Origin: Bacteroides sp.
GTDB taxonomy: Bacteria; Bacteroidota; Bacteroidia; Bacteroidales; Muribaculaceae
Assembly (NCBI GenBank): GCA_014802045.1
Contig: JAAVDA010000015.1
Coordinates: 31,571 to 78,986 of the forward strand
Length of the DNA stretch: 47,416 nt
Direction of reading: 5' to 3'
Part shown: positions 1,438 through 12,977 of the stretch, one piece after another
Numbering within the stretch: position 1 is the first letter of the stretch
Layout of the letters: the number at the start of each line of letters is the position of its first letter
Translations under genes and position numbers: made by a program
The notes under the pieces: model-generated
What the model was told of the DNA's origin: nothing
Databases searched by the model: none
The model's input: only the letters and a program-made list of their open reading frames with translations

Positions 1438-3528
1438 TCAGCGGCTGCCGGCCTTCGATTGCTCGACTGAAGTATCGGCATTGACGCGCTTGTCTACACC
1501 ACGTTTCTGACGTCCCCACTGCAGGTTGTAGGAAATCTGGATGAAAGGCATTGAAGCTAAGTCAAGGCGCATATGCTTCTCATTTGTGTTGTAATGGTTT
1601 AGCAGGCGTGATCCCTGATCGTATTTATTGAACGGGCATAGCATGCCGGCACCAAACTGCCACTTTTGCCAGTTATAGGCAAGCATTGCAAGCGAAACCT
1701 TCTCACCCCAGGTTTCTCTTTCGCCTATAAGGGTTGTTGCATTATGATTATACTGAACAATCAGGTTAAAGCCCCAATGATATGCCATGGCCGTTACTTC
1801 GCCACTCCAGTTGTATTTAGTGATGTTATATCCCATTCCCTTGGTATTGGTAAGACCATAGCGGATATATCCCGATAAATTGAGCCATCCCGGAATCAGA
1901 TTGATATCCGGCGAGATATATGCCGAAAACCATTTGCGTCCGCGGCTATTCTCAAATGACGACACGAGTCTTTCATCTTGCCACTCATAGAAAGGAGCTA
2001 TTGATTTGGGGGAGAACAGATAGTTTACTCCCACCGTGCCTGAGATACGGTCACCGCTATAGGAATATTGGGCATCTATGCGATAATTATTGTAGGTGTG
2101 CAGTTGCGGATTGCCTATCTGCCACTGGAAGGCATCAATCTGCTGGGCCACACTGTTGGTTTCCGAGAGTGTAGGAGACACTTGCCAGGAGTAAAATGCC
2201 AGATACCAACGCGAGGCATTCCCAGGACGATATGACAATGTAAGCCGAGGACGCAGATTCCACGAATGATTGCCGAGTCCGGATTCCCGGAGCTTGAACG
2301 ATGAATATTGGGCTCCGAGACCTCCGGTAAGTGTCACCTTGCCAATCCTATGCATATATTCACCAAACAGATACACATTATTCTGATTCTGGTGATATTT
2401 CTCTCCGCCGAGGTTCTCATAGGTTGACTGATTGCTGCTGCCGTTGTATGACACTCCGGCTGTAAGCCTTGACCTGCGCCATTGCTCGGTATAATTGGCT
2501 TCGATGGCATAGGAATAATTCCGGTCTCTGATCCGGGTATCTACCTCGGTAATCATATCCCCGCTCTCTGCTCCATTCTCCGAGTGATGATGACCTGCGA
2601 AGCCTCTATAAAATGAAGTTCCGGCATCAATGGCCAGAATCCGGTTTTTGGCCAAGTGTTGCTCCACATAAAGTGATGCTCTTGGAGTGAGCCCGTGGCT
2701 GCTATCCTTATCTCTTACTCCTACCTTATCCGTGCCGTCACTCAATGTCAACAGGCCTCTGTAGTCTTCGCCCGAAGAAAAATTCTTGAATCCTGAAAGA
2801 CTTGCGTATATTACGGTCGTATCCGGTTTGATATATGAATATGACAGGGTTGCCTTTGCGTTACTTTCTTTCGCTTTACCACCCAGAGGGCTTTCGTTGC
2901 GTGTGAGATGGCTGCCATCAGGATATGTGAATGTCTCGTAGTATTCACGATAAACATCCACATCTGTAACTTTTCCCGTCAGATCGAGTCCCCACTGCGA
3001 CCTCCCATTATTGAGCTTCACAGACGCGCTGCCCTGCCCCCAAGGTGTATTCAGTGCCGGCATAGCCTGCACCATAAATGACCCTCCAAGACCGGGATTG
3101 CGCACAATCAGATTGATCACGGCGTTTGCCCCTTTATATTTCAGACCCGGATTCTCAATCCACTCCACACGCTTGATATCGTCGGGCGACAACGTTTTCA
3201 TTTGTTCGACGGATGCCACACGTCCGTTGATCCGGATTTCCACAGCGCTGCCGAGAGACGACACGGTGCCCAAAACTTCATTTACGGTAACTGATGGAAT
3301 TTTGAGATTTTGGAGCAGTTGCATTCCGTTTTTCGACAGAGCTTTTGCATCGGCCGACGGGATGTATAGATCCATATCAGATTTGTGGAGCACTTTCGGG
3401 GCCGACACCACAATCTCCTGAAGAACCTTTGATTCCGTCACAGTGTCGGGCACAACCTCCTGCGCCTCCACACCTGCTGCACAAAGCAGAGCCATTGTCA
3501 TCACGCATCCGGTCATGCTTTTGCGCAT
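1438..3528 (-). CDS. Outer-membrane beta-barrel protein, TonB-receptor-like, paralogue 1 (OMP1)
   Basis: About 696 residues from the ATG at 3528. The frame is open to 3603 (721 residues), but the signal peptide (MRKSMTGCVMTMALLCAAG, cleaved near VEAQ) begins at 3528. After it come VTESKVLQEIVVSAPKV, a plug-like domain (VEIRINGRVASVEQM, DDIKRVEWIENPG, ANAVINLIV) and then an aromatic-rich barrel (OMP_b-brl_3 type) to the C terminus. There is no CarboxypepD_reg domain at the N terminus. The likely role is outer-membrane transport or binding; no substrate can be read. It is a tandem paralogue of the gene at 3963-6107. Their first ~35 and last ~40 codons are nearly identical while the middle has diverged. 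The 5' region carries a copied purF promoter. Confidence 0.8.
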   Translation of the reverse strand: MRKSMTGCVMTMALLCAAGVEAQEVVPDTVTESKVLQEIVVSAPKVLHKSDMDLYIPSADAKALSKNGMQLLQNLKIPSVTVNEVLGTVSSLGSAVEIRINGRVASVEQMKTLSPDDIKRVEWIENPGLKYKGANAVINLIVRNPGLGGSFMVQAMPALNTPWGQGSASVKLNNGRSQWGLDLTGKVTDVDVYREYYETFTYPDGSHLTRNESPLGGKAKESNAKATLSYSYIKPDTTVIYASLSGFKNFSSGEDYRGLLTLSDGTDKVGVRDKDSSHGLTPRASLYVEQHLAKNRILAIDAGTSFYRGFAGHHHSENGAESGDMITEVDTRIRDRNYSYAIEANYTEQWRRSRLTAGVSYNGSSNQSTYENLGGEKYHQNQNNVYLFGEYMHRIGKVTLTGGLGAQYSSFKLRESGLGNHSWNLRPRLTLSYRPGNASRWYLAFYSWQVSPTLSETNSVAQQIDAFQWQIGNPQLHTYNNYRIDAQYSYSGDRISGTVGVNYLFSPKSIAPFYEWQDERLVSSFENSRGRKWFSAYISPDINLIPGWLNLSGYIRYGLTNTKGMGYNITKYNWSGEVTAMAYHWGFNLIVQYNHNATTLIGERETWGEKVSLAMLAYNWQKWQFGAGMLCPFNKYDQGSRLLNHYNTNEKHMRLDLASMPFIQISYNLQWGRQKRGVDKRVNADTSVEQSKAGSR

Positions 3529-3784
3529 AGTTGACGAGCAGCCCATTGTCCGGCTGCCACGCTGCTCACACCGAATCACATCTTTTGATCTTTCTCTATC
3601 CATTGAGACTATATTTTATTATTACTTTTGCCGAATGCCACACACACTTCGTGCCAATCGGCAAAATAGTATCTCACACAAACCGTGCCAAAATGACAAC
3701 ACACTGATAATCAGAGAGGGAATTGAAATCGAGATGTACGATATCGTACACATTGTCCGTTATTTCCGTACACTTTCCCGATTT

Positions 3785-3962: not shown

Positions 3963-6107
3963 TCAGCGGCTCCCAGCCTTTGACCGCTCGACTGAGGTAT
4001 CGGCATTGACGCGCTTGTTCACTCCCCGTTTCTGACGTCCCCACTGCAGGTTGTAGGCTATCTGGAGGAAAGGCATTGAGGCAATCTTATTAGAGCGGAT
4101 ATGTTTTTCATTGCTGATATATCGGTTAATCAGGCGTGATCCTTGATCATATCTGTTAAACGGACAGAATAAGCCGGCAGCAAATTGCCATTTGCCCCAG
4201 TTGTATGCAAGCATGGCAAACGAGGATCTTTGTCCCCATGTCTCGCGCTCACCTATCAAGGTAGTGCGTTGATGCTCATACTGAAGAATCAACTGAAAAT
4301 TCCAGTGGTACGCTACGGCTTGTATATTGCCGCTCCAATTATGATTTCTAAGGCTGTAGCCTGTGCCTTCTGTGCGGGTTAACCCCCATCGCAGGAATCC
4401 GCTTAGGGTGACCCATCCGGGTATCACATGTAGGGTGGGAGCGATCGAAGCCGCAAGTTGCTGACGGTGACGGCTGTTCTCATAAGTGGAAATAAGGCGG
4501 TCGCCTTCCCAGTGATAATATGGTGCTATAGCGTTCGGTTCTGTTTCGGCAAACATGCTCACTTGCCCTGAAAAACGGTTGGAGGAGTAACCGTATTCGG
4601 CCTGTAGAGTATAGGAGGAATATGTTTTAAGATCAGGATTACCCAATTCCCATTGGAATCCATCTATCTGCCGGGCCACGTTATTTGTCTGGTCAAGTGT
4701 CGGAGTAGTCTGGCGTGTGAAGAATGACATATACCACCACGATGCCTGAGTAGGACTATAATAGAATGTGACCTGTGGCCTCAGATCCCATGATGACTTC
4801 CCGCGATTGCTTTCGCAGAACAGGTATGAGCTGTATTGCACACCTAAGCCGCCAGTCAGGGTCACTTTATTTATGGAATGTCTGTATTCGCCGAACAAAC
4901 GGAAACGGTTCTGCGACTGGTGAAATGTCTGATCGCCAAGTCGCTCATATGTCGATTTATTACGCGCTCCCCCATACAGCGCACCTGCCGTGAACTTCGA
5001 TTTAGACCACTCCTTTTCATAATTGATCGTTGCGCCAAAGGAGGTATTGCGGTCATGGATGGATGTATTCACATCAGTGATAATTTCTTCCTCAGAATGG
5101 TGGGATTGTTCTGTGTAGATGTGTCTTGAGTATCCGTCGTAATGAGCGGCAGAAGCATCGACTGACAGAATCTGACCTTTGCCGAGATGCTGTTCCAGAT
5201 ATGCGCTGAGTCCTGGAGTGAAGCCGTCGCTACCGATTTTGTCATGAAGCAGTATATCGCCCGACTGATCGCTCATGGTCAGCAGTCCACGGTAGTCTTC
5301 GGTAAGATTCCACATTTTAAATCCACTCAACTTCACATAGATCATCGTTGTATCGGGTTTGACATAATTATAAGCAACTCCGAACTCAGTATGATTTTCA
5401 GTAAGCGCACCTCCGATGGGTTCCTCAGTTCGGTTTAATATTTGCCCGTCGGGGTAAGTGAAGGTTTCATGATATTCTCTGAAAGATTTTATCTTATTTG
5501 TAAGTTTCTCATCCACATTGAAGCTCCATTGTGATTTGCCGCTATTGAGCTTCAATGATGCCTCTCCTTGTCCCCATGCATTATTGAGAGCCGACATGGC
5601 CTGAGCCATTAAAGAGCCGCCGGTAGTAGGATTTACTGTTATTACGTTGATTACCGCCGTAGCGCCATCATATTTCATTCCTGGGTTGGATATCCATTCC
5701 ACCCTTTTCACATTCTCGGGTGCTATCTGTTTCAATTCGTTCACCGAGGTCACACGTCCGTTGATACGCACCTGTACCGAATTACCCTTTGCCGTCAACG
5801 TACCCATCACATCATTAGCCACCAGGGTAGGGACACTTAAATTATTAAGCAACTGCAGTCCATTGGCCGACAGTCGCTTGGCCTCGGCCGACGGATAATA
5901 CAGATCCTTGTCGATTTTCTTTATGACTTTTGGGGCTGACACAACAACCTCCTGAAGAACCTTTGATTCCGTCACAGTGTCTGGCGCAACCTCCTGCGCC
6001 TCCACACCTGCTGCACAAAGCAGAGCCATTGTCATCACGCATCCGCGTATAGCCGGATATGTGTGGCACATAGTCTTGCAGACAGATTTCAATGAATTAA
6101 TTATCAT
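3963..6107 (-). CDS. Outer-membrane beta-barrel protein, TonB-receptor-like, paralogue 2 (OMP2)
   Basis: 714 residues from the ATG at 6107. The frame is open to 6188, but the -7 element at 6138-6145 lies inside that extension, so 6107 is chosen. The hydrophobic signal segment (CVMTMALLCAAGVEAQ) is identical to that of OMP1. Plug-like motifs are VQVRINGRVTSVNEL, ENVKRVEWISNPGMKY and ATAVINVI, followed by a barrel-type region. The C-terminal part (SYNLQWGRQKRGV in OMP1, AYNLQWGRQKRGV here) is almost shared. It is divergently transcribed from a PAS-LuxR regulator, with an inverted repeat between the genes that is also found upstream of the ThiF-like gene. Expression is therefore probably controlled by that regulator (inference). 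The substrate is unknown. Confidence 0.8.
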   Translation of the reverse strand: MIINSLKSVCKTMCHTYPAIRGCVMTMALLCAAGVEAQEVAPDTVTESKVLQEVVVSAPKVIKKIDKDLYYPSAEAKRLSANGLQLLNNLSVPTLVANDVMGTLTAKGNSVQVRINGRVTSVNELKQIAPENVKRVEWISNPGMKYDGATAVINVITVNPTTGGSLMAQAMSALNNAWGQGEASLKLNSGKSQWSFNVDEKLTNKIKSFREYHETFTYPDGQILNRTEEPIGGALTENHTEFGVAYNYVKPDTTMIYVKLSGFKMWNLTEDYRGLLTMSDQSGDILLHDKIGSDGFTPGLSAYLEQHLGKGQILSVDASAAHYDGYSRHIYTEQSHHSEEEIITDVNTSIHDRNTSFGATINYEKEWSKSKFTAGALYGGARNKSTYERLGDQTFHQSQNRFRLFGEYRHSINKVTLTGGLGVQYSSYLFCESNRGKSSWDLRPQVTFYYSPTQASWWYMSFFTRQTTPTLDQTNNVARQIDGFQWELGNPDLKTYSSYTLQAEYGYSSNRFSGQVSMFAETEPNAIAPYYHWEGDRLISTYENSRHRQQLAASIAPTLHVIPGWVTLSGFLRWGLTRTEGTGYSLRNHNWSGNIQAVAYHWNFQLILQYEHQRTTLIGERETWGQRSSFAMLAYNWGKWQFAAGLFCPFNRYDQGSRLINRYISNEKHIRSNKIASMPFLQIAYNLQWGRQKRGVNKRVNADTSVERSKAGSR

Positions 6108-6137: not shown

Positions 6138-6145
6138 CAAAATTA
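6138..6145 (-). promoter_or_regulatory. -7 promoter element of OMP2
   Basis: TAATTTTG fits TAnnTTTG, 30 nt upstream of the OMP2 ATG at 6107. No TTG sits at the normal -33 distance. Instead the TACCCTTTTGTGT box begins 24 nt further upstream, which is the geometry of an activator-dependent promoter. Confidence 0.65.
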
Positions 6146-6168: not shown

Positions 6169-6221
6169 TACACAAAAGGGTATATCAAGCGATTTTGCCT
6201 TAAATCTTACCCTTTTGTGTA
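6169..6221. promoter_or_regulatory. Inverted-repeat operator between OMP2 and its divergent regulator
   Basis: A perfect 14-bp inverted repeat: TACACAAAAGGGTA at 6169-6182 and TACCCTTTTGTGTA at 6208-6221, with a 25-nt spacer. Each half faces one of the two divergent promoters. The 13-bp core occurs once more at 7868-7880, upstream of the ThiF-like gene. The natural candidate binder is the adjacent LuxR-type protein (inference). Confidence 0.7.
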
Positions 6222-6251: not shown

Positions 6252-6259
6252 TATTTTTG
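6252..6259 (+). promoter_or_regulatory. -7 promoter element of the PAS-LuxR regulator
   Basis: TATTTTTG fits TAnnTTTG, 24 nt before the ATG at 6284. The facing half of the inverted repeat ends 31 nt upstream. A weaker element, TAATTTTC at 6243-6250, would place the box 22 nt upstream instead. Confidence 0.5.
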
Positions 6260-6283: not shown

Positions 6284-7061
6284 ATGACTTCCAACATACA
6301 GATAGGCGACTTCTTTTCGCTTCAAAATTCGGTAGAGAACATCAATGAGTCGGACTATGAGAAGACTGACCTTATAATAGAGGCTGCCAAAGCTTTCGAG
6401 CGGAGCACCTATCAGTGCGTATATATCATAGATTATTTCAAAAAGGGATTTCTATACGTATCCAGCAATATCGCACGTTTGTGTGGTGGTGACGCCGAGA
6501 AAATCAAAGATTTCGGATATAAATTCTATATAGATTATGTGCCTGAGAAAGATCTGAAAATGCTTGTGGAGATAAACAATAACGGCTTCAAGCTCTTCAA
6601 TACTCTCCCCGTGTATGAGCGCAAGGACTACACCATATCATATAACTTCCACATCATCAGATCTGGAGGGGGGGGGGAGAAGCACACGCCTCGTAAACCA
6701 TAAACTGACGCCACTCATCCTTACGAAAGACGGCAGGATATGGCTGGCTATATGCACCATCTCGCTTGCAGCAGGCAATGAGACCGGAAATGTGATTTTC
6801 AAGAAAAACGGAGCCGGAAAGTTTTATGAGTACTCATTTTATGACCACAAGTGGGAGGAGCGCCCGGAAATCTCGCTGACCGACAATGAGCGTGAGGTGC
6901 TTTCGCGCTCCACTCAGGGTTATACCATGAACGATATCGCCGACAATATCTGCAAGTCGGTCGATACCGTGAAAGCCTATAAGAGGAGTATCTTTCAGAA
7001 GATGGATGTGAAGAACATCGCCGAGGCGGTCACCTATGCCCAAAACCATCAGCTGATTTAG
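6284..7061 (+). pseudogene. PAS-LuxR transcriptional regulator, frameshifted at a G10 tract (possibly phase-OFF)
   Basis: Two frames together make one regulator. From the ATG at 6284, frame 1 encodes a PAS-like sensor region (QCVYIIDYFKKGFLYVSSN, YVPEKDLKMLVEINNNG) and stops at 6703 after 139 residues. The continuation is in the next frame: LVNHKLTPLILTKDGRIW, then a GerE/LuxR helix-turn-helix near the C terminus (LTDNEREVLSRSTQGYTMND, SVDTVKAYKRSIFQKM). The break is at ten consecutive G (6668-6677). With nine or twelve G the gene would read through to about 258 residues. No other damage is visible, so this looks like a switchable or wrongly counted homopolymer, not an old pseudogene. Its stop overlaps the end of the convergent ThiF-like gene by 4 nt. 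Probable role: one-component activator of OMP2 and neighbours (inference). Confidence 0.75.
6668..6677 (+). repeat. Homopolymer G10 inside the regulator gene
   Basis: Ten G after TCTGGA. A change of one base restores the reading frame (GGA plus nine G, then AGA AGC ACA). It falls between the PAS-like half and the DNA-binding half, so the present state should yield a protein without its helix-turn-helix. Confidence 0.9.
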
Positions 7062-7813
7062 GCAGGGTCACACCTGATAGACGAGAAATAGAATTTCGGG
7101 AAATATTTCACCTCTTCGCCTGTGATGATGTCGAACATGGCGTTAACACAGTGGCCGGCCACAACCCATGATGCAACAGCCAGACGTGGCGGCAACAGCT
7201 CTCCGCGCTCGGAGCGCCACTGTTCAATCATCCCGTCGAGCCATCTGTTGGGCATATTCCAGAATGTGCAATAGCGAGCCACAAACTCAGCCATCTTGAT
7301 TTCGAAGCCTTTATAGGAGGGCGAAATCTCATTGAGCTGATAGCCTCCAGGCTTCACAATAGTGAGAAAGGCTCCCCAACCGAAATTATAAGGGTGAAGC
7401 ACCGGTATTCTCTTTTCCGAACATCGGGCATCGAACACAAAAGGTATGTCGGATCTGAAATCAAGGGCATTGACAGCGATATCCACTCTGTCGAGCAGTT
7501 CTTCCAGATTGTCGGTATCTATCATCATATTATGCCATCTGACATTAGCTTTCGGATTTATTTTCAGCAGTCTTTTGGCCAGCGATTCTGCTTTAGGCTT
7601 GCCGATATCGCTCTTCACAAAGTTCTGCCGGTTGAGATCTGAGACCTCGACCTTACTACCATCAGCTATCACGATATTCTCGAAGCCTAAGCGCAGGGCA
7701 CATTCGGCTATAACGCTCCCAATGCCCGCTCCGCCGAGCAATATCCGGGTCCGTCTCACCTTTTCCTGCTCTTCCTCACTCACATATATCCGGTTTCTGC
7801 TATATCTGTCCAT
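7058..7813 (-). CDS. ThiF/MoeB/HesA-family E1-like adenylyltransferase
   Basis: 251 residues from the ATG at 7813. The frame is open to 7852, but the -7 element at 7836-7843 argues for 7813. The N terminus RYSRNRIYVSEEEQEKV is followed by the nucleotide-binding loop GGAGIGS (27-33), then ADGSKVEVSDLNRQNF with the family DLNRQ (59-63). The C-terminal part is divergent. The paired CxxC zinc motifs of MoeB/ThiF are not seen. Family members adenylate the C terminus of a ubiquitin-like sulfur carrier or a small substrate, in the cytoplasm. No carrier gene lies nearby, so the substrate is unknown. Its promoter has the same box at the same 24-nt spacing as OMP2, suggesting co-regulation. Confidence 0.75.
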   Translation of the reverse strand: MDRYSRNRIYVSEEEQEKVRRTRILLGGAGIGSVIAECALRLGFENIVIADGSKVEVSDLNRQNFVKSDIGKPKAESLAKRLLKINPKANVRWHNMMIDTDNLEELLDRVDIAVNALDFRSDIPFVFDARCSEKRIPVLHPYNFGWGAFLTIVKPGGYQLNEISPSYKGFEIKMAEFVARYCTFWNMPNRWLDGMIEQWRSERGELLPPRLAVASWVVAGHCVNAMFDIITGEEVKYFPKFYFSSIRCDPA

Positions 7814-7835: not shown

Positions 7836-7880
7836 CAAAGATATATGTGCATGTATTATCCGCCACCACACAAAAGGGTA
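7836..7880 (-). promoter_or_regulatory. Promoter and operator box of the ThiF-like gene
   Basis: The -7 element TATCTTTG is at 7836-7843. The box TACCCTTTTGTGT is at 7868-7880, with exactly 24 nt between them. The arrangement matches the OMP2 promoter in sequence and spacing. Confidence 0.7.
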
Positions 7881-9829: not shown

Positions 9830-10768
9830 ATGATACGCGTAGGCATAACCGGCGGCGAATCAGAAGCGGCCGGACATCTCATCAGAATTCTCATAAACCA
9901 CCCCGATGTGGAGCTCGCATGGGTAGAATCGCCCTCTGAAGAGGGCGCCCTCCTCTCCCAGCGCCACAAAGGGCTCACCGGAGAGACCTACATGCAGTTT
10001 TGCCGCAAAGGAAATCCGGAAGACACCGACGTGATATTTCTCTGCCACACCGACGACGGCGATTCGGAGCGATACGTGGCCACACGCAAGATACCCGACA
10101 CCGTGAAACTCATAGACCTCTCGCCCGACTTCCGCATGCCCGAAGAGGGCAGCGAATCGCCCTGGGTCTACGCTCTCCCGGAGCTCAACCGCAAGCCTCT
10201 GGTGCGCGGAGCCACACGCGCCGCCATCCCCGGGCCGCTTGCCACCATTATGCTCCTCGCCCTCCTGCCAATGGCCAAAAACCTGCTGCTCAACTCAGAC
10301 ATCCATGTGAGCTGTGTCACCCCCACCGGCGAAGACACTCCCGGCGAGGCCACCGTGATGTTTGACCACGAAGAAATCGAAGAGACCCGCCATGCGCTCC
10401 GCTCCCTGCAGCAGAGTTTTGACGCTCCCATTCATCTCGTGGCCACAGCCGGCGGATGGAACCACGGCATCTCGGCCACAATCTATCTCGACACTCCGGT
10501 GAGCGAAGATGACATCAAGGATATCTACGACACTTTCTATGAAGACCACGGATTCACATTCCTTTCCGAATCATATCCCGGACTCAACGAAGTGTCGGGC
10601 ACAAACAAGTGTGTGATTCATGTGGAGAAGGCAGACAGACGTCTGGCCGTGACAGCCGTGATTGACGATGCCCTCAAGGGGGGCGCCGCAGCCGCTGTCC
10701 ATGTGATGAATCTGCTCTTCGGCCTTCAGGAGCGTGTGGGGCTCATGCTCACCGCCGCCGGCCGCTGA
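9830..10768 (+). CDS. ArgC-like protein lacking the catalytic cysteine
   Basis: 312 residues, homologous to N-acetyl-gamma-glutamyl-phosphate reductase. It has an N-terminal Rossmann start (VGITGGESEAAGHLIRIL), LIDLSPDFRM, YALPELNR and a C-terminal TNKCVIHVEK, DDALKGGAAAAVHVMNLLFG. The ArgC active site normally reads NPGC followed by an aromatic residue, A or P, then T. Here it is IPGPLAT (133-139), so the nucleophilic cysteine is proline (136). The usual basic RG motif is also changed (WNHGIS). The frame is intact and the rest of the fold looks conserved, so it is not a fresh pseudogene. It is probably inactive as a reductase. A regulatory or binding role next to argR is possible (inference). 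The 3' end overlaps dnaG tail to tail by 20 bp. Confidence 0.8.
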   Translation: MIRVGITGGESEAAGHLIRILINHPDVELAWVESPSEEGALLSQRHKGLTGETYMQFCRKGNPEDTDVIFLCHTDDGDSERYVATRKIPDTVKLIDLSPDFRMPEEGSESPWVYALPELNRKPLVRGATRAAIPGPLATIMLLALLPMAKNLLLNSDIHVSCVTPTGEDTPGEATVMFDHEEIEETRHALRSLQQSFDAPIHLVATAGGWNHGISATIYLDTPVSEDDIKDIYDTFYEDHGFTFLSESYPGLNEVSGTNKCVIHVEKADRRLAVTAVIDDALKGGAAAAVHVMNLLFGLQERVGLMLTAAGR

Positions 10769-12977
10769 AGCGTGGAGCCACAGTGCGCTCCCCCAGATAG
10801 CGGGCAAGTTCCATCTTTATGACATTGAGCTCACCCAGCTCACGCATCATTATCACGAGGTCGGCATCCGTGCAGGTGCCGGCCTCGAATGCTTCGCGCA
10901 TCTTCTGCTGCAGCGAGCGAATCTCCCTCTCTATTATCGCTTCTTTGAGATTGAGCAGAGCCTGCGGCACGAGATCCTTCAGCTTGTCTTCTTCGGTCTC
11001 CACCTTGGCATATTTGGTGTGGATTTTGCTCAGACGGTGTTTTTCGCTCACCAGCGACAGGGTGATGTTGCGCACCGTGTCGTCGGCCGACGAAGACAGC
11101 ACCCTGGCTATATATGAGCCTGAATACTCGGCCATCCCGGCCTCGAAATCAGCCTCAACCTGCTCGCGCAGCCGCTCCTCGGCAGCCTGAAGCGAAGCCA
11201 TGTCGCCCACCTCGTTGCGTATTTTCTCCACACCCGCCTCCATGGCGCGCTCCGCCTCCTCGCGCAGCCGGGCTTTATGGCGCTCCTCATCGGCCGCACG
11301 CGAAGGCGACGATGCCACCTCCACAGCAGCTTCAAACGCCCTGCGGTAAGGCTCGTGAGTGAATGTCATCTCATCTCCGGCCATATCGTGGATGATATAT
11401 TCTATCACATTCATAGGCCAGGTATTGCCGTCGGCGTCTACTAAGTCGCAAAGATAGCGCATGCCGTAGCGCAACGCATAGCGCAGCAGCTCCCTCTCAT
11501 AGGGCGCCAGAAGAGCATCGCCCGAGGCCGGAATCCCCATCCCGGCTCCAGTCCTGTCGGTGGCAGGCTCCGAAGTCGTTGTGGCGTCTGCCGGAGCCGA
11601 CTCCGCCTGCTGTCCGCCACTTTTGCGCGCGCGGGCTCTCTGCTCGTCGGCGGCAGCCTTTTCGGCAGACTGCGCCATGAGCTTGTTCACCTGAAGGGTC
11701 AGCAATGTCTCGGCCACGCCGAAAGTGCGGCTGCACTCGGCAATATACATTGTGCGCAGCATCGGTTCAGGCACCACCGATATGGTCTTTACAATCTCAT
11801 TTATGGCCTCGGCGCGCCGCTGTGGGTCGCGGTCGGTGCCTTCGAGGAGTATACGGGTTTTGAACTGGATGAAATCGCTCTCATGCTCCGCAATATAGCG
11901 CTCCACCTCGGCCGACGAATGAGACTGCGCGAACGAATCGGGGTCATCCCCCTCCGGTAGCAGGAGCACCTTGATCTTAAGCCCCTCGGCAAGCAGCATA
12001 TCAATGCCTCGCAGAGAGGCCTTGATACCGGCGGGGTCGCTGTCGTAGATCACCGTCACATTTTCGGTGAAACGGTGTATGAGCCTTATCTGGCCCTCGG
12101 TGAGCGACGTGCCAGACGAAGCCACCACATTGGTTATGCCAGCCTGATGCATCGAAATCACATCCATGTAGCCCTCCACGAGTATACACTTGTCTTTCCT
12201 CACAATCTCGGGCTTGGCCTGATAGAGACCGTAGAGTTCGAGGCTCTTATGGTAGACGATAGATTCTATCGAGTTGACATACTTGGCCATCGTCTTGTCA
12301 GAGCGAAGAGTGCGGCCGCCGAAAGCCACCACCTTACCCGACACCGTAAACACCGGAAAAATCACCCTCTCGCGAAAACGGTCGCGCCACTCTCCGCGCT
12401 CGTTGCGCATGCAGAGACCGGTCTTTTCGAGATATTCGGGGTTAAACCCTCTCGCAAGCGCCGTCTGATAGAGGGCATCGCGCTGCTCCAGCGAATAGCC
12501 GAGATGAAATTTCTTGACCATGGCGTCGTTGATACCGCGCTCGCGGAAATAAGACAGCCCTATGTCGCGCCCTTCTGAGGTGGAGGTGAGGTTGCGCTCA
12601 AAACATTGCATCGCAAACTCATTGGCAGCCATCATGCTCTCGCGTTCGGTGGCCGCCTCACGCTCCTCGGGGCTGAGCTCGCGCTCCTCTATCTCGATGT
12701 TATATTTCTTTGCCAGCAGTCTGAGAGCTTCCGGATAGGTCATCTGCTCTATCTCCATGATAAAGCTCACCGGACTCCCCCCCTTGCCGCAGCTGAAACA
12801 CTTGCACAGCCCCTTGGTTTTCGACACGGAAAATGAAGGGGTGCGCTCGTTGTGAAACGGGCACAACCCTATATACCCCGACCCGCGCCGCTTCAGGCTG
12901 ACGTAGTCGCTCACCACGTCGACTATATCGGCCGCGTCGAGGATGCGCTGCACTGTGGCATCGTCAATCCTTGCCAT
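10749..12977 (-). CDS. dnaG: DNA primase
   Basis: 742 residues. DnaG makes RNA primers at the replication fork. The N-terminal CHC2 zinc ribbon is C39, H42, C60, C63 (LCPFHNERTPSFSV ... CKCFSCGKGG). The catalytic core with the TOPRIM domain follows: CILVEGYMDVISMHQAG, VASSGTSLTEGQI and VIYDSDPAGIKAS with acidic metal ligands. The C-terminal third is a helicase-binding region with a low-complexity Ala/Thr linker near residues 440-480. It stands alone on the minus strand, about 60 nt after ettA. Confidence 0.95.
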   Translation of the reverse strand: MARIDDATVQRILDAADIVDVVSDYVSLKRRGSGYIGLCPFHNERTPSFSVSKTKGLCKCFSCGKGGSPVSFIMEIEQMTYPEALRLLAKKYNIEIEERELSPEEREAATERESMMAANEFAMQCFERNLTSTSEGRDIGLSYFRERGINDAMVKKFHLGYSLEQRDALYQTALARGFNPEYLEKTGLCMRNERGEWRDRFRERVIFPVFTVSGKVVAFGGRTLRSDKTMAKYVNSIESIVYHKSLELYGLYQAKPEIVRKDKCILVEGYMDVISMHQAGITNVVASSGTSLTEGQIRLIHRFTENVTVIYDSDPAGIKASLRGIDMLLAEGLKIKVLLLPEGDDPDSFAQSHSSAEVERYIAEHESDFIQFKTRILLEGTDRDPQRRAEAINEIVKTISVVPEPMLRTMYIAECSRTFGVAETLLTLQVNKLMAQSAEKAAADEQRARARKSGGQQAESAPADATTTSEPATDRTGAGMGIPASGDALLAPYERELLRYALRYGMRYLCDLVDADGNTWPMNVIEYIIHDMAGDEMTFTHEPYRRAFEAAVEVASSPSRAADEERHKARLREEAERAMEAGVEKIRNEVGDMASLQAAEERLREQVEADFEAGMAEYSGSYIARVLSSSADDTVRNITLSLVSEKHRLSKIHTKYAKVETEEDKLKDLVPQALLNLKEAIIEREIRSLQQKMREAFEAGTCTDADLVIMMRELGELNVIKMELARYLGERTVAPRFSGRRR

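Follow-up and report, generated by a model that had tools for sequence, protein, structure and literature searches.

Homopolymer slippage in a regulator gene has been described for mga of group A Streptococcus, for which reversal and strain variation were shown; a pure homopolymer in this transcription-regulator gene shifts the frame, alters the C-terminal end of the product and controls a surface protein, and one section heading refers to serotypes without the tract (PMC10330708). In Bordetella pertussis, a frameshift in the gene of a two-component regulator switches a regulon, a case of phase variation attributed to Stibitz (1989) in PMC11868660. In the literature surveyed, which includes that paper, phase variation in Bacteroidales is described as DNA inversion, involving invertible promoters of OMP and polysaccharide genes.

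The regulator gene analysed here resembles mga in that a pure homopolymer shifts its frame and it is predicted to control a surface protein, and its tract is likewise lacking in relatives. It differs from mga in that the repeat is a coding-strand G run in the middle of the sensor domain, seen at one length, in a Bacteroidales commensal. With the Bordetella system, the gene of which is reportedly bvgS, it shares a frameshift in a regulator gene that would switch a regulon, whereas the protein is a two-component sensor in Bordetella and a one-component PAS-LuxR activator with five predicted promoters in our case. The invertible promoters concern surface genes of the same bacterial order, and slippage is proposed here instead of inversion. 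A search of the open-licence literature, judged among the papers listed by title and the start of the abstract, found no report on slippage in Muribaculaceae or on a genome-wide poly-G phase-variation repertoire in the order. A slippage switch in a PAS-LuxR activator, if true, would give gut commensals another means of becoming heterogeneous from cell to cell.

The 47,416-nucleotide stretch of DNA that was analysed (the window) is part of contig C15 in an assembly of 2.22 Mb consisting of 37 contigs, with a completeness of 75.7% and a contamination of 2.23%. A G10 homopolymer at 6668..6677 (+ strand), which is the longest G run in the window, the next longest being three G6, divides a regulator gene into two pieces. 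The N-terminal piece (6284..6703, +) is an open reading frame of 139 amino acids that runs out of frame past the tract, and its residues 1-127 were 87% identical to the product of an intact copy on contig C24 of the same assembly, a near-duplicate of which is located on contig C3. The C-terminal piece (6678..7061, +, including the stop codon) lies in another frame and contains the last PAS strands, followed by a GerE/LuxR helix-turn-helix (HTH) at the C terminus (PF00196, E-value of 2.2e-13, 50 bits against a cut-off of 23.5). Over query residues 126-254, this piece and the intact C24 copy were 84% identical. No stop was observed inside either piece in the alignment to the C24 copy. Since both pieces match the intact copy without stops, they constitute one gene with a single frame change at the tract. 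The original prediction of a frame disrupted by G10, of a 139-residue product without the HTH and of the tract as the sole defect in an otherwise intact regulator was thus borne out.

In the assembly, both the tract and the change of frame are real. Two features expected of a simple-sequence contingency gene are present, namely a pure repeat long enough to slip inside the reading frame (G10) and a coding signal that is intact and constrained on either side of it, with one deviating position in the HTH. If the count were wrong by one, the ON/OFF state would be altered, and the slippage-prone run in a conserved activator gene would still be there.

Subsequently, the position of the tract in the protein fold was examined using a model of the intact C24 copy, which was built from a 32-row alignment (pLDDT 92.6, pTM 0.86). 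PAS structures were among the fold matches of the N-terminal part of the model, whereas no Pfam PAS match was obtained by sequence in the regulator. In the model, strands 117-126 and 129-142 form a beta-hairpin, whose turn holds the tract (between residues 124 and 132). The HTH starts near residue 193, as judged by L030, approximately 65 residues after the tract. The tract had been predicted to lie exactly between the PAS and LuxR halves; the model instead places it in the turn of the PAS hairpin, so that the frame change cuts the PAS sheet itself. Small insertions were found at this turn in L040 and L043 of the 32-row alignment, indicating that the turn tolerates changes in length. The best match of the regulator, both in sequence and in fold, was 3clo, a PAS-LuxR protein of Bacteroides with 19-20% identity in the fold alignment, and the next fold match was VqmA, the PAS-LuxR quorum-sensing receptor of Vibrio, with 14-16% identity. 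As in the window regulator, a PAS sensor is combined with a LuxR-type HTH in 3clo, VqmA, and EL222.

The divergent neighbour of the regulator gene is OMP2 (3963..6107, -), an outer-membrane beta-barrel-like gene taken as an open reading frame from the first ATG past its promoter box. Its product was 21% identical (4e-26) to the protein at the equivalent place in L042 and had no match in Pfam, NCBIfam, or PHROGs. A paralogue, OMP1 (1438..3603, -; 58% identical to OMP2), has no operator of its own and is possibly in the same transcript as OMP2. The two tandem paralogues are nearly identical at the signal-peptide region and at the C-terminal end, as if by gene conversion. On the other side, a gene for a ThiF/E1-like adenylyltransferase (7058..7813, -; PF00899, 5.1e-34), whose product was 80% identical to the L030 ThiF over 1-251, is convergent with the regulator gene.

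An inverted pair of TACCCTTTTGTGTA was found between OMP2 and the regulator gene, and a third site before thiF. Given the distance of 25 bp between its 14-bp inverted arms, the pair resembles two matched binding sites more than an invertible promoter. One arm (6208..6221, +) is located 30 bp before the regulator's own -7-type promoter box, TATTTTTG (6252..6259, +), and the other arm (6169..6182, -) precedes the -7-type box of OMP2, TAATTTTG (6138..6145, -), by exactly 23 bp. The third site (7867..7880, -), which has one mismatch, again lies exactly 23 bp before a -7-type box, that of thiF, TATCTTTG (7836..7843, -). The operator pattern, which was derived from the same place, gave three matches in the window with two mismatches or fewer, against 0.11 expected. 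The probable operator is TACMCTTTTGTGTA.

When 56 sequences, consisting of the window, L002, and 54 homologous loci, were scanned for TACMCTTTTGTGTA with at most one mismatch, 66 sites were obtained in 26 of them, plus one site cut by a sequence end; many of the site-bearing loci are close relatives, so that the sites are not independent. A TAnnTTTG box, which we take to be the -7 element of Bacteroidetes promoters, was present exactly 23 bp downstream of the operator at 36 of the 66 sites, in 19 sequences, against 0.04 expected. The distance was 30-32 bp at 11 sites and another value at six, and 13 had no box within 80 bp. The 30-32-bp class corresponded to the regulator's own promoter in the loci examined for it, whereas the 23-bp element preceded thiF in 11 of 15 cases and an acyltransferase gene in seven of nine. 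The 23-bp element was not found at L046 or L060, nor before thiF at L062, and L045 contains too little sequence upstream of thiF. A single fixed distance is what an activator touching RNA polymerase needs, and the regulator may therefore be called class-II-like.

The composite of operator and box at this spacing was then counted in 34 genomes of the genus. With at most one mismatch it was found in three: eight times in the present assembly, once in G013, and three times in G026. All three genomes also carry a regulator of the same family, and no reversed-pattern control element was found in any of the 34. In four of the seven genus genomes with the regulator, the element was absent at the threshold used. 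The eight elements of the present assembly represent five distinct promoters, those of OMP2 and thiF in the window and those of a cargo gene, the acyltransferase gene, and thiF on C24, together with three duplicates on C3; both target promoters in the window have no mismatch to the composite pattern. So few elements indicate a local regulon. A whole surface-protein regulon had been suggested, whereas the assembly has five distinct promoters with the element, including the two of the window; a genome-wide surface regulon was accordingly rejected, the eight occurrences being counted at one mismatch or fewer, a threshold that could overlook sites of greater divergence. Together, the operator and its constant distance from the promoter box provide a concrete and checkable regulon of five promoters in the assembly, and the 23-bp rule allows targets to be sought in related genomes.

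The tract was next compared with the corresponding stretch in relatives. Across 54 homologous loci from named genomes, no tract was found at the same place, the longest G/C run in the matched stretch being 6. The nearest named homologues are labelled mostly as Muribaculaceae and in some cases as uncultured Porphyromonadaceae, and are gut commensals. The regulator is present in seven of the 34 genus genomes and was matched in 129 of 397 genomes of a family sample; among the family matches listed, only the window copy was split at the tract position, and a partial match in G106 has a stop elsewhere. Because of the lack of a long run in the 54 loci and this lone split among the listed matches, the tract looks private to the lineage and is not a conserved contingency locus. 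A scan of viral_contigs for length variants of the flanked tract gave none.

Taken together, we favour, at about even probability, a slippage-prone on/off switch that is specific to this lineage, lies in a local activator, and was assembled at its OFF length. The encoded protein would be a PAS-LuxR activator of transcription with a small and local regulon; it would bind TACMC-TTTT-GTGTA as a dimer and contact RNA polymerase from a fixed position, thereby activating thiF and OMP2, the latter perhaps together with OMP1. In the tolerant turn of the PAS hairpin, a poly-G tract may have grown in this lineage, and slipped-strand mispairing there would bring the half that encodes the HTH into frame or take it out again. 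Since the 139-residue fragment lacks half of the PAS sheet and the HTH, the regulator would be OFF at the assembled length, and the intact second copy, which has the same operator, could partly cover for it. The two copies share the operator and have nearly the same HTH, and may thus cross-talk.

A possible, if unlikely, alternative is that the consensus or the assembly miscounted a real tract, in which case the gene would be intact in most cells and the regulator ON, with the potential for slippage remaining. The assembly gives some reason for this concern. It is incomplete, and contigs C24 and C3 are 98-99% identical across approximately 60 kb, suggesting that the bin contains two haplotypes of one region, from which C15 was not separable by tetranucleotide composition. 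Scattered Ns occur in C15 (100) and C3 (205), both halves of the regulator are under strong constraint, and there is no homologous tract for comparison. On the other hand, the window itself is free of N, and the primase gene near the regulator (10749-12977) is open despite a shorter run, C7 at 12777. Moreover, when the homopolymers of C24 and C3 were compared (19 of 29 matched one way and 20 of 22 the other way), the single length difference was T8/T9, which also argues against a miscount.

A recent fixed loss, in which one slip became fixed in the lineage and left a fresh pseudogene whose function was taken over by the second copy, is considered improbable. It would agree with the split form being seen only in the window copy among the listed homologues, and with the intact second copy with the same operator in the assembly. 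The divergence of the two halves was also determined. The dN to the intact C24 copy was 0.072 for the N half and 0.078 for the C half, the synonymous differences being near saturation. When the pieces were aligned separately to 14 relatives, the lowest dN was 0.072 for the N piece and 0.060 for the C piece, and the synonymous sites were saturated or nearly so. In a branch codon model with seven taxa, whose long branches limit the resolution, the omega of the window branch was 0.041 for the N piece (background 0.053, 2ΔlnL 0.17) and 0.040 for the C piece (background 0.034, 2ΔlnL 0.13); hence, no rise was detected on the window branch, and neither piece differed from the background. The residues fixed in the 14 other relatives were retained at 45 of 45 positions in the N piece and at 51 of 52 in the C piece. 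The sole exception was a change of Leu to Arg in the first HTH helix, at a position occupied by Leu or Tyr in all 32 alignment rows. Changes found only in the window comprised six amino-acid and three synonymous ones in the C piece, against three and six, respectively, in the N piece. The Arg and this ratio in the C half may be an early sign of decay and likewise count in favour of a fixed loss. In contrast, the lack of any further stop or frame change, the unraised omega, and the composite element kept without mismatch at both target promoters argue against it, as does the tract itself, since pure G9-G10 tracts are prone to slip back on mutational grounds. In the regulator of L043 (3001-3774), the N-half dN to the window copy was 0.085, similar to that of the other relatives, and the C-half dN was 0.23, which looks like recombination.

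Low dN and unraised omega speak against an old pseudogene, although a very recent loss would be possible. The original prediction had named homologues split at unrelated places as the mark of an old pseudogene; instead, 52 of the 54 homologous stretches were open, in some of them over only part of the gene, and the two loci with stops, L073 and L078, are distant and contain no G/C run longer than 4, L078 having an A/T run of 9. With homologues mostly open and strong constraint on both halves, an old pseudogene was rejected. Slippage during expression, by which RNA polymerase or the ribosome would slip on the G run to give the fragment and some full-length protein, or by which the C piece would start at an ATG as a sensor-less DNA-binding fragment, is highly improbable. 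Programmed sites are usually conserved, and among the homologues examined this one was not. In its favour are the length and purity of the tract, an ATG at 6615 that lies 53 nt before the tract and in frame with the C piece, and the recognition of programmed transcriptional realignment as a cause of conserved frame transitions (PMC3711429).

Long G tracts were also counted across the assembly on both strands. Exact counts were 41 for G7, 11 for G8, 16 for G9, and 3 for G10, with none longer; G9 thus outnumbered G8. Extrapolation of the step from G7 to G8 gave approximately three G9 and 0.8 G10. Markov nulls based on three contigs gave 7.2 (order 4) or 11.7 (order 1) runs of at least 9, against 19 observed, and 2.8 or 1.7 runs of at least 10, against three observed; these models over-predicted shorter runs, giving 130-207 runs of at least 7 against 71 counted. 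Since the nulls differ, the excess of runs of at least 9 ranges from 1.6- to 5-fold, and for G10 by itself the Markov nulls leave hardly any excess. A chance G run is unlikely, although how large the excess is depends on the null. Of the 34 genus genomes, 33 contain runs of G10 or longer.

Twelve of the 19 tracts of at least 9 were located within envelope genes, as classed from Pfam families, or in the 150 nt preceding them (tract-bearing loci L008, L010-L012, L016-L018, L022-L025, and L029). These genes encode three SusC/TonB receptors, two of which have the tract inside the leader and in frame, a BspA-type LRR protein, two propeller proteins, DUF3575, a glycosyl transferase 4, a MatE-type flippase, an acyltransferase 3 with the tract inside and in frame, a hexapeptide transferase, and NeuB. 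G8 tracts adjoin such envelope genes too. The long G tracts beside envelope genes are a candidate slippage phasome. The in-frame G9 leaders of SusC-type genes were set aside as proof of slippage; L121 has the same GGGY leader peptide, with no G9 listed there. In the window, a C9 was observed at 533-541, where it separates a hexapeptide transferase gene (636-1283, -) from the start of a glutamine amidotransferase-like gene of the same orientation. As for the predicted phase-variable regulator as a whole, the interpretation gained from the constraint on both sides of the tract, the activator-like geometry at the divergent OMP gene, and the tracts at envelope genes, whereas the predicted tract position and regulon size did not hold.

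Finally, the gene neighbourhood of the regulator was compared among 55 loci by tblastn (1e-8). A ThiF/E1-like gene accompanies the regulator in 14 of them, in addition to the window, many loci being cut by contig ends. An acyltransferase gene is present near the regulator in nine (L002, L030, L032, L033, L036, L037, L045, L046, and L060), and was not found in the 47-kb window at the same threshold. It is divergent in most of the nine loci and lies beyond thiF in L037, and the acyltransferase-regulator pair also occurs in Parabacteroides distasonis. The acyltransferase showed a weak match to Pfam FeeM (23.5 bits or less, under the cut-off of 27). In its model (pLDDT 92.2), the best fold matches were TofI and LasI, with FeeM (2g0b) and BjaI at ranks 4 and 5, suggesting that it shares its fold with LuxI/FeeM synthases of AHLs and N-acyl amino acids at 10-19% identity; other GNAT enzymes matched almost as well. 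Production of commendamide, an N-acyl glycine, is known from Bacteroidales (PMC5643525). The acyltransferase in some relatives hints at a quorum-sensing-like circuit, which is a fair lead and not a result. When the open-licence literature was searched for a LuxR with a homopolymeric tract, or for LuxR/LuxI/FeeM-type systems of Bacteroides, Bacteroidetes, or Bacteroidales, no matching paper was obtained.

A broader scheme, which we think unlikely as a whole, would be a Muribaculaceae circuit composed of a LuxI/FeeM-fold synthase, a PAS-LuxR receptor, an E1-like enzyme, and exchangeable OMP or peptide cargo under one operator. In the window lineage, a second, synthase-less receptor would have gained the poly-G switch, so that only part of the population answers the signal with OMP2, and would belong to a poly-G phase-variation repertoire that spans the genome. 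The cargo varies among the loci, including an OMP_b-brl_3 protein in L033, a radical-SAM/SPASM protein in L032, a LanC-like protein in L045 (below cut-off), and lipoprotein-like genes classed by eye. In L034, the ThiF gene (1033-1784) is split into two frames in the MAG.
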